This document shows, piece by piece, positions 10,630 to 48,117 of a stretch of DNA of 64,000 nt. The stretch comes from Halosimplex rubrum (lineage in GTDB: Archaea; Halobacteriota; Halobacteria; Halobacteriales; Haloarculaceae). Under the pieces are notes generated by a model. It did no database searches. It worked only from the letters and a program-made list of their open reading frames with translations, and was not told the DNA's origin. The stretch lies in assembly GCF_013415885.1 (NCBI RefSeq), contig NZ_CP058910.1, positions 3,596,001-3,660,000 on the forward strand. The letters are read 5' to 3'. The translations under genes were made by a program, and so were the position numbers. Each line of letters starts with the position of its first letter. Within the stretch, counting starts at the first letter, position 1.

Positions 10630-11100
10630 TCACTCGACGGCGACGACCTCGACCTCGAAGGTGAGCGCCTCGCCGGCGAGTTCGTGGTTGAAGTCGACGG
10701 TGACCGTCTCGTCGTCGGCGTCGACGACCTCGCCCGGCAGGCCCTCCTCGGTCTGGATCTCCAGCCCTTCCTCGACCTCGCGGCCGCCGAGCATCTCCGC
10801 GAACTCGTCGGCCTCGTACTCGACGACGCGGTCGTCGGTGCGCTCGCCGTAGGCCTGCTCGGGCTCGATCTCGACGGTGTCCTCCTCGCCGGCCTCCATG
10901 CCGACCAGGCCGTCCTCGAGGCCCTCGATGATGCGGCCCGAGCCGATCTCGACGGTGAGCGGCTGGTAGTCGCGGTCGGGCTGGTCCGCGGCGAGGCCCT
11001 CCGCTTCCGCGACGGACTCCAGCGACGTGTCGAAGACGCTGCCGTCGTCCAGTCGCCCTGTGTACTCGATCGTGACCGTGTCGCCTTGTGAGATAGCCAT
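10630..11100 (-). CDS. FKBP-type peptidyl-prolyl cis-trans isomerase (SlyD-like)
   Basis: The protein has 156 residues. It begins AISQGDTVTIEYTGRLDDGSVFDTS, followed by IGSGRIIEGLEDGLVGM and GEEDTVEIEPEQAYGER, the hallmark FKBP elements. An inserted IF (chaperone) domain covers about 85-130. It catalyses proline isomerisation and assists folding in the cytosol. Unlike many SlyD proteins there is no His-rich tail. ATG at 11100 is the natural start; the open frame continues upstream into repeat DNA. Confidence 0.94.
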   Translation of the reverse strand: MAISQGDTVTIEYTGRLDDGSVFDTSLESVAEAEGLAADQPDRDYQPLTVEIGSGRIIEGLEDGLVGMEAGEEDTVEIEPEQAYGERTDDRVVEYEADEFAEMLGGREVEEGLEIQTEEGLPGEVVDADDETVTVDFNHELAGEALTFEVEVVAVE

Positions 11101-11174
11101 ACCGTCCGAAACGGTGGCCGACGGATAAGCCTGCGGACTGGGACCCGCGCCCGCGTTCGGTACGGAGGTTGCAG

Positions 11175-11425
11175 TGAATCGTTGCGGTGGCGCGCGCTGT
11201 CGAGCGTGCCCGTCTCGTGGCGGGCCGCTCGAAATAGCCGCGCGAGGGATGACTGAGCGAGTGAAGCGAGCGAAGGAATCGGCTGGGGAGGCTCGTGGTC
11301 GTCTGTGGTGCTGTGTGGGTCGATCTGCTGTTTCATATCCGTCGCGGTTCTGGTGGACTGAAAGGGCGAGGCGCGCTCGCGCAGGGAGTCGTCTGAGCGG
11401 AACACGCGCACGGGTCGTTCCGCTC
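11175..11425 (+). repeat. Dispersed GC-rich intergenic repeat, copy A
   Basis: A gene-free region that shares a series of blocks, in the same order and on the same strand, with 33740-33990. The blocks are ggcgcgcgctgtcg, ctcgtggcg, cgcgcgaggga, a gaggc-gtctg-ggt segment, and a block related to ctggtggactgaaagggcg. It fills much of the 552-base gap between the FKBP gene and the next plus-strand gene. Copies diverge and carry no open frame that looks coding. The rest of the gap (11426-11640) becomes less GC-rich and shows nothing recognisable. Confidence 0.6.
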
Positions 11426-11640
11426 CCCGTGCGTGAGCGCGCCGAGGGCTTTGGACACCTGCCGTCGGGTGTGATTACCATCGCTCGACTTCGTTTCACA
11501 GAAACTCGAACTGAAACCACGGATGGACGAATAGCCAGTCTGAGAAGGATATTCGACGAGTCGTCTCATGTGGTGTAGATATGGTTCCACACCCAGAGGC
11601 GGAGTTGCCGGAGTGGACAAGACATATGTCAAATCGGAGA

Positions 11641-11646
11641 GGAGGT
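11641..11646 (+). promoter_or_regulatory. Strong Shine-Dalgarno site deciding a GTG start
   Basis: ggaggt complements the 3' end of haloarchaeal 16S rRNA and ends six bases before the GTG at 11653. Such a site is uncommon here because most genes look leaderless. Confidence 0.55.
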
Positions 11647-11652
11647 TTGTTT

Positions 11653-11985
11653 GTGTCTCGAATGACTGTGCTATACTCGGTCGGTATCGTAGCACTCGTT
11701 TCACTGTCTCCTCTTTCCACCGGGCTTGGTGTTGCTCAGCTAGCTTATCAGGGTCAGCCACTGTCGGCCGAGAACACTACTGAAACACTGACTCAGACCG
11801 ATATCGAGACTAGGACAACGACAGCACTTCCGACAAGCACAACGGTGGACTCGCACGGCGGCCCTCCGTTCAGCCAGTTCGGTCTGATGTATCTGATGAT
11901 CGGTCTTGGCTGTCTGATCTTTCTTGGCGGAGTAGTTGCGATACTTTGGAATGTATATCCGCGTTCAAGCACGGAGAACCGTTGA
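11653..11985 (+). CDS. Hypothetical membrane-anchored protein
   Basis: The 110-residue protein has an N-terminal hydrophobic segment (VLYSVGIVALVSLSPLS). A Thr/Ser-rich linker follows, then a C-terminal membrane helix (LMYLMIGLGCLIFLGGVVAIL) and a short cytoplasmic tail. It looks like a small membrane protein with an exported Thr-rich stretch. GC content is clearly lower than in neighbouring genes, which suggests recent acquisition or relaxed selection. The GTG at 11653 is preferred because of the ggaggt site; ATGs at 11581, 11626 and 11662 are alternatives. No family recognised. Confidence 0.5.
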   Translation: MSRMTVLYSVGIVALVSLSPLSTGLGVAQLAYQGQPLSAENTTETLTQTDIETRTTTALPTSTTVDSHGGPPFSQFGLMYLMIGLGCLIFLGGVVAILWNVYPRSSTENR

Positions 11986-33329: not shown

Positions 33330-33665
33330 TCACCGCAGCAGTCGCACGTCCGTCACCGGTTCGGGGTGGACGATGCGGAACCCGTCTGCGGTCGGCGACC
33401 GCCCGAGCGTCGCCGGCGCCCGGCGGCTGGACCCGTACGGGCTGTCGTCGGCGATGCCCTCGTAGGGGTTGTCGCCGCCGGTCGGTCGGTAGGGCGTCGC
33501 CTCGCCGTCGTCCTCGGAGGGTTCGGGCGGCAGATAGATCCGCTCGCCCGACGCCGACCGGACGACCGTCGCCACCCGGCGCTGGCCCGACACCTCGATG
33601 GTCGTCCGCCCGTCCTCGACGTCGATATCGACCGAGACCGGTCCCTCGGCGTTCGCCCCGCTCAT
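33330..33665 (-). CDS. Conserved haloarchaeal hypothetical protein
   Basis: This 111-residue soluble protein has a beta-rich first half (VSVDIDVEDGRTTIEVSGQ, VATVVRSASGERIYLPPE). A Gly/Asp/Tyr-rich middle (TPYRPTGGDNPYEGI) and a final strand follow. No enzyme motif is seen. I believe similar proteins are conserved in haloarchaea but give no function. It converges with the glycosyltransferase gene, 28 bases apart. Confidence 0.65.
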   Translation of the reverse strand: MSGANAEGPVSVDIDVEDGRTTIEVSGQRRVATVVRSASGERIYLPPEPSEDDGEATPYRPTGGDNPYEGIADDSPYGSSRRAPATLGRSPTADGFRIVHPEPVTDVRLLR

Positions 33666-33739
33666 GCCCCAATCGCGGGCCGAGAGCGACTTAACTGTTG
33701 GCGTCGGTGCGGAACCGGCGTTCGAGACGGGTGCGGGGA

Positions 33740-33990
33740 CGGTGGTGACGACGCCAGCGGTGCGGTCGGCGCGCGCTGTCGCGGCCTCGTGGCGCGACGT
33801 AGTCGCGCGAGGGACGAGTAGCGCAGCGTGCGAGCAGCGAGGGACCGGAGCTCCCTCGGGCCATGCGGGCGACCCGAGCGTCGCCCGCAGACATCGCGAG
33901 AGGGGGGGAGGGACGAGGCCGTCTGCGGTCGCTGTGCGGAGCGGGTTCGGTCCTGGCGGACTGAACGGGCGAGCGGGCCGAGGGCGTTCA
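33740..33990 (+). repeat. Dispersed GC-rich intergenic repeat, copy B
   Basis: It shares ordered blocks with copy A (11175-11425): ggcgcgcgctgtcg, cctcgtggcgcg, cgcgcgagggac, a gaggccgtctgcggtcgctg segment and a ctggcggactgaacgggcg segment. Copy B has an extra 70 bases or so containing GGGCGACCC-GGGTCGCCC-type inverted repeats around 33870-33890. It fills most of the 431-base divergent gap between the gene at 33665 and the amylase gene at 34097. No open frame here looks coding. Confidence 0.6.
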
Positions 33991-34096
33991 GCGTCCGTAG
34001 TCGAATGCGGTCGGTCCGGATCGGGGCGGTTCACACATCGTCGACAGAATCGCGCGCACCGCAAACCCGAAGGCACAGACGCGTGCAGGTAGGGGC

Positions 34097-47787: not shown

Positions 47788-48117
47788 AAATCCGTGTCTG
47801 CTCCTCGGTGGGCATCTGACCGGGGCCTATGTCTACCGTGGCCATAGCCAGATGGCCCAGAGACACCATCTACCGTCAAAAATGGAGGCCTCGGCACTCA
47901 TAGGGGTCGTCACCGCCGGGTCGTCAGGCCGGCTCGGAACCGCGGGTCGTCATCGGCCGGCCGGACGTACGCGGTCACGCGGCAAGTCGGTTTCCACCGC
48001 GAGTTGAGCGGCCGTCGGTCCGTCATCGCGGAGTAACTGCGCGTTTCGACGCGTAAGACCGGCTTGTCTGGGCTACCCGGCGGCTAACTAAGCCCGTGCC
48101 GTCGCAAGGGAGTCTGC
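47788..48117. other. Gene-free gap between the island and core genes
   Basis: It contains a short direct repeat (tctaccgt at about 47830 and 47868) flanking TGGCCAT/ATGGCC inverted sequence, then GC-rich DNA. A taactaag element at 48082-48090 could be the promoter of the gene at 48118. No tRNA or attachment site was recognised. Confidence 0.3.

Follow-up and report, generated by a model that had tools for sequence, protein, structure and literature searches.

A multi-copy intergenic element of Halobacteria with a strand-specific multi-hairpin fold lies in two gaps of a Halosimplex rubrum stretch

The window, that is, the whole stretch of DNA that was analysed, comprises 64,000 nucleotides of the Halosimplex rubrum contig NZ_CP058910.1 (positions 3,596,001 to 3,660,000, forward strand). 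Two of its intergenic gaps, at 11.2 kb and 33.7 kb, lie upstream of minus-strand genes (10630-11100 and 33330-33665, respectively), and each contains a copy of the same element on the plus strand. The gene beside the 11.2-kb site is presumably peptidyl-prolyl isomerase-like. A 134-aa open frame (11581-11985, plus strand) adjoins the first copy; the codon model made no call on it, and a different gene occupies this place in G004. Here G000 denotes the window's own genome and G002-G007 its congeners. The only Rfam match of the window was the C/D box RNA sR-tMet (47887-47958, minus strand). The features of the two copies are as follows.

11156-11515, plus strand: copy 1, a nearly complete element with the 5' motif TTCGGTAC 33 nt before GGCGCGCGC and the 3' motif GAACTGAA
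11156-11163, plus strand: 5' terminal motif TTCGGTAC, a possible short inverted repeat (consensus GTTCAGT), in 12/54 rows
11191-11196, plus strand: P1 5' strand CGCGCG, pairs with 11239-11244
11201-11231, plus strand: HP1, the first variable hairpin; stem sequence swapped among copies, pairing retained
11239-11244, plus strand: P1 3' strand CGCGCG, pairs with 11191-11196
11242-11291, plus strand: class-wide core GCGAGGGATGA-HP2-ATCGGCTGGGGAGG, an exact match to a pattern common to many haloarchaeal genera
11248-11280, plus strand: HP2, the second variable hairpin, with tandem G-A steps (tandem-GA form in 60/114 copies)
11281-11299, plus strand: GU-rich helix GGCUGG...GUGG, helix 4 of the covariation test
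11351-11457, plus strand: 3' domain CTGGTGGACTGAAAGGGCGAGGCGCGCTCGCG ... GAGCGCGCCGAGGGCTTT, a long imperfect stem (alignment, model R1 and fold)
11508-11515, plus strand: 3' terminal motif GAACTGAA (end comparison)
33768-34000 (end approximate), plus strand: copy 2, a shortened, decayed element (genome search, covariance model E 2.1e-7)

A full Halosimplex copy starts with the end motif TTCAGTAC, followed by GCGGT-GGCGCGCGCT, of which CGCGCG pairs with a later CGYGCG to form P1 around HP1. The middle part consists of GCGAGGGATGA, HP2, ATCGGYTGGGGAGG with GUGGC (the GU-rich helix) and a variable GC-rich stretch. The 3' domain GGACTGAAAGGGCGAG...CGAGGGCTTTCA makes a long imperfect stem, and the copy may end in GAACTGAAC. 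Copy 2 retains P1 (33770-33775 paired with 33804-33809) and HP1; its central core ATCGGCTGGGGAGG is mutated, HP2 is enlarged, and the 3' domain is shortened by deletion of the 3' arm. The element measures about 360-500 nt in Halosimplex and about 165 nt in Natrinema-type copies. Other genera commonly have the 5' core with a different 3' part; the 3' domain is lineage-specific. Some copies finish with an array of 57-bp tandem repeats (L029 1688-1823; L016 1738-1937); the 3' strand of the terminal stem (GCGAGCGCGNCGAGGGCTTTCA) recurs in each unit, and the array thus provides alternative pairing partners. Extra hairpin-forming inserts were found at a few recurring sites within the element (L005, L010, L021, L023, L034, L103, L145).

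An earlier sequence-only reading of the window had proposed that blocks in the same order and on the same strand recur in the two gaps. This was borne out when 11150-11520 was locally aligned with 33690-34040, which gave a score of 52. When the comparison was repeated with 500 dinucleotide shuffles, the scores averaged 23.1 (sd 3.1, maximum 36) and none reached 52; the shuffled controls that the reading had named thus gave no comparable block match. The 33.7-kb gap was the top non-self match to the 11.2-kb gap when compared with 360 other stretches of the window. The originally proposed interval, 11175-11425, falls inside copy 1 but misses both ends of the conserved sequence, which extends from about 11156 to 11515. 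The 11.2-kb copy gave at least 48 genome matches at E ≤ 1e-3 and the 33.7-kb copy at least 49, these matches being pieces rather than copies. A covariance model of the 5' domain built from 19 copies (R2) detected the window copies at E 5.5e-25 (11.2 kb) and 2.1e-7 (33.7 kb), and located the 5' domain at 38 or more places of the 4.48-Mb genome including these two; the copy counts are lower bounds, since each genome search scored a limited set of candidates per genome, at most 40 with either window copy, 17 in the blastn comparison of relatives, 150 with R2 in the own genome and 11 with R2 across the class. Both gaps are therefore copies of a dispersed family with further members in the genome, as had been claimed.

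The family is not confined to this species. A blastn match was obtained in 28 of 40 relatives, and all 8 genus members had at least 22 matches each. R2 matched 155/292 genomes of the class, representing 41 of 77 genera, and in a phylum-wide sample 26 of 294 genomes matched, all 26 belonging to the window's own order. Among the matches listed (80 loci), a pattern scan of named genomes detected the element in Halosimplex, Natrinema, Natronococcus, Haladaptatus, Halorussus, Halococcus, Halogranum, Salinibaculum and others; L056 and L059 are one copy, and L058 and L060 are not true copies. Spread on plasmids was rejected, as a match was found in 9 of 72,556 records, eight at sites with no annotated feature and the ninth in a record that carries no annotation. 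A phage or viral origin was likewise rejected, since neither a phage search nor a core-pattern scan of viral contigs gave a match. No Rfam family matched the window copies when the whole window was searched at gathering scores, and none of the five weak matches obtained for six further loci at E up to 5 was inside an element. Haladaptatus has head-to-head copy pairs with gaps of 39-41 nt (L102 4279-4579; L147 686-988; L164 1056-1374; L106 5515-5830), and Natrinema copies occur in tail-to-tail pairs (L104, L107, L142, L152).

The fold was evaluated by covariation in an R2 alignment of 93 matches that came from named genomes; this alignment is fitted to the model and so leans towards it. Paired cells amounted to 91.3% vs 74.5% in shuffles, and cells changed on both sides to 317 vs 99.7 (sd 8.1), these cells being non-independent events. 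Sliding the partners by 1-3 columns left 79 or fewer such cells, and 0/500 shuffles reached any covariation measure. Covariation beyond the controls is strongly supported, because the margins are wide despite the model-fitted alignment. In HP1 the entire stem changes between copies while pairing is kept. A common structure, which the sequence-only reading had suggested looking for, is thus found as a conserved multi-hairpin fold of the plus strand with compensatory changes far above the controls.

In P1 of 114 distinct sequences, there were 89 G.U/U.G cells and 19 A-U cells as against 2 A.C/C.A cells, and one P1 pair was G.T in 45 sequences vs G.C in 62. These sequences and the named loci were picked by a pattern that fixes part of the P1 3' strand and the core, so that conservation there is partly by construction. 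Since palindromes in double-stranded DNA would give both kinds of wobble equally, the excess of G.U over A.C indicates a fold of the plus strand. The Halosimplex 3' domain had 23 G.U vs 3 A.C, as counted from the alignment table. The plus strand folded more stably than its complement in 114/114 copies (mean -47.8 vs -37.6 kcal/mol); for copy 1 (276 nt) the values were -146.1 kcal/mol (z -3.3) and -110.2 kcal/mol (z -3.3), respectively. HP2 took the form NN-GA-NN-loop-NN-GA-NN in 60 of the 114 copies, compared with 1.15 expected on shuffled letters. These data support the view that selection acts on the folded plus strand, either as RNA or as single-stranded DNA. Neither a hammerhead-like nor a kink-turn reading of the GAUGA-stem-GAA was retained, since the residues or the bulge that define these motifs are missing.

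Gene context was determined from the genes that a home-made hexamer model called around 30 copies of the own genome and 72 named copies; own loci L031, L034, L035 and L040 (4/34, which lack the regex core) and named copies less than 1 kb from a locus end were left out of the sample. The 102 copies were intergenic, with a single overlap of a predicted small open reading frame. Their neighbours were both on the plus strand in 24 cases, both on the minus strand in 25, convergent in 38 and divergent in 15. Tandem arrays thus show no bias in orientation to transcription, and promoter-free gaps are preferred. Of the 16 own-genome copies that follow a codirectional gene, 14 have their 5' end 0-58 nt past its stop, and a divergent start was always at least 64 nt away from the 5' end in this genome. 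The 5' neighbour was codirectional in 46/72 copies of the named genomes (p 0.024), a slight excess that goes with the excess of convergent gaps. A TATA-like box at -60 to -15 was present in 0/37 Halosimplex copies and 4/75 other copies, and the control stretch gave 0 and 2. The earlier reading had noted that both gaps lie upstream of a minus-strand gene, which is true of the two copies but incidental and no rule of the family. It had also proposed a repeat element or a regulatory RNA rather than chance. The further copies and the RNA-like structure bear out the first part, but a regulatory tie to the minus-strand neighbour is unsupported because tandem arrays are oriented 24 vs 25 and the search for a conserved promoter found none; a cis-regulatory element of that neighbour was rejected on the orientation statistics. 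Beside several copies there is a T-rich terminator-like motif, a hairpin followed by GGATGCTCAGTACAGG or similar; it is upstream of the element in L018, L010, L032 and L034 and near 258168 of the G004 joined stretch, and GGATGCTCAGTGTAG also occurs in L222, which has no element.

Orthologous sites were occupied unevenly among the congeners. G000 and G005 carry the element at the 11.2-kb site, whereas G002, G003, G004, G006 and G007 lack it there; the absence from G004 rests on comparison of sequence and flanks, and the 64-nt gap there is an extrapolation. The genomes with a copy at the 33.7-kb site are G000, G003, G004 and G007, and those without one are G002 and G005. Five copies were found over 460 kb of G000 and 17 over 800 kb of G004. 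For nine of these 17 both flanks were located in the G000 stretch, which has a copy at three of the nine places. L009, L024 and L031 are common to G000 and G004, which indicates that many copies are old; L001 is absent from G004. Conversely, G000 lacks the copies that G004 has at 258168, 438800 and 550198 of its joined stretch, even though the flanking genes align at about 86-95%. No clean empty site was found around absent copies in the comparison of G000 with G004, as the intergenic sequence does not align cleanly, and gains are therefore not separable from losses. The four orthologous copies at the 33.7-kb site have three types of HP1, all of them paired, and these differences at one site point to a possible exchange of modules between copies or to re-insertion.

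Copies were also found at rearrangement joints. In its joined stretch, G004 carries two copies in inverted orientation, at 605939(-) and 760406(+). The left flank of L014 in G000 matches beside 760406(+) and the right flank beside 605939(-), and L010 has the complementary two flanks. L010 and L014 are thus both joints of a 155-kb inversion between the two species, which indicates that the copies are recombination substrates. L021 (G000 C1 about 3497600) is another rearrangement breakpoint at a copy: in G004 its flanks are separated by about 146 kb, and neither has an element within 1.5 kb.

In the near-identical pair L034/L035, the common sequence lies between the end motifs TCAGTAC and (A/T)ACTGA. 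Short end motifs were seen at the 5' end in 12/54 rows, of which about 6 had them at the 3' end too, and GTTCAGT/ACTGAAC-like ends occur in a minority of Halosimplex copies. No target-site duplication was evident by eye at L011, L034 and L035. A SINE-like retroelement with an RVT_1 partner was rejected, since the reverse transcriptase PF00078 was found in 4/292 genomes and not in G000. Y1 transposase was present in 201/292 genomes. No Y1 match was obtained in at least 11 element-positive genomes, a search that a past or divergent enzyme could escape; as these include the element-rich G188, G009, G041 and G249, Y1 transposase was rejected as an obligatory partner.

The element is multi-copy, intergenic, unoriented to genes and uneven at orthologous sites, and its plus-strand fold is kept by compensatory change. 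The two gaps probably contain copies of a MITE/REP-like mobile repeat of Halobacteria, non-autonomous and protein-free, with a selected plus-strand fold. Copy number, turnover, orientation neutrality, avoidance of promoters and genes, and the L034/L035 pair argue for this reading. The end motifs found in a minority of copies, the lack of a visible target duplication or an empty site, the old copies, and the failure to find a partner enzyme or viral carrier argue against it. Spread of such a repeat would depend on recognition of its folded plus strand, as RNA or single-stranded DNA, by a factor provided in trans, and copies landing in promoters or genes would be lost to selection, leaving those between genes. 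A bolder version, which is possible although on the unlikely side, is a class-wide element with a large RNA fold that spreads without supplying its own reverse transcriptase, transposase or virus, exchanges hairpins as whole modules, and presents its folded plus strand to an unrecognised trans-acting mobilising machine.

Two other explanations of the fold appear rather unlikely. The copies might be small RNA genes in their own right, with a transcript from each that acts in trans, perhaps through a shared protein bound to the tandem-GA hairpins. The strand-specific, strongly covarying RNA-like fold, the intergenic location and the long life of copies at some sites fit this explanation, but the scarcity of TATA-like boxes (0/37 and 4/75), the rapid turnover of presence and absence, and the dozens of copies in the own genome do not. 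With a similarly low likelihood, the fold might be one of single-stranded DNA, PATE/REP-like, with one strand recognised by a Y1 (HUH) transposase and no RNA role. GNA triloops are very stable in DNA and are frequent in HP2, where 36/111 are closed as C(GNA)G; the strand asymmetry would suit single-stranded DNA too, and Y1 transposase is widespread (201/292 genomes). However, the very frequent G.U-type pairs (45 G.T vs 62 G.C) are better suited to RNA, and four element-rich genomes gave no Y1 match. It is highly improbable that the element acts in cis in the untranslated region of a neighbouring gene, as a terminator, attenuator or riboswitch: the 5' ends close behind codirectional stops (14/16) and the codirectional excess (46/72) would agree with it, but tandem arrays are split 24 to 25 and congeners have the same genes without the element. 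Chance similarity of GC-rich gaps is refuted, since the region is indeed GC-rich but the shuffle scores, the exact core match, the genome-wide copies, the covariance model matches and the covariation all contradict it.

Returning to the probable mobile repeat, a structured family with no Rfam name is present in over half of the haloarchaeal genomes sampled (155/292), fills intergenic space and sits at both joints of one chromosome inversion. Its covarying, strand-specific fold opens testable questions about transcription and the mobiliser, and the element could account for many haloarchaeal intergenic gaps that lack annotation and for possible orphan small RNAs; PMC7002113 describes 22 conserved intergenic Halobacteria transcripts without function. 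No published description of the family was found in a literature search that covered few subscription journals.

The family is new to Rfam; it resembles Rfam families in being a structured RNA detectable by a covariance model and differs in matching none of them. The nearest described elements are the transposase-free repeats of Haloquadratum and the bacterial BOX/REP-type repeats. Bacterial BOX/REP/ERIC/Correia-type repeats are modular, structured, intergenic, multi-copy and probably non-autonomous. The Halosimplex element shares these properties but is archaeal and class-wide, a comparison made by description and not by sequence. Like MITEs, it is multi-copy and short (about 360-500 nt, intergenic) and has no open reading frame. 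According to PMC3119063, the MITEs, PATEs and SMRs of Haloquadratum walsbyi are short, transposase-free, multi-copy mobile repeats; PATEs have near-terminal palindromes, and target duplications are often caused by MITEs and not by SMRs. The Halosimplex element is likewise short, transposase-free, multi-copy and haloarchaeal. It is set apart from these repeats by description rather than by sequence: no parent transposon was found for it, and it is, unlike them, a single family spread over much of the class, with a covarying one-strand multi-hairpin fold and fast hairpin replacement.
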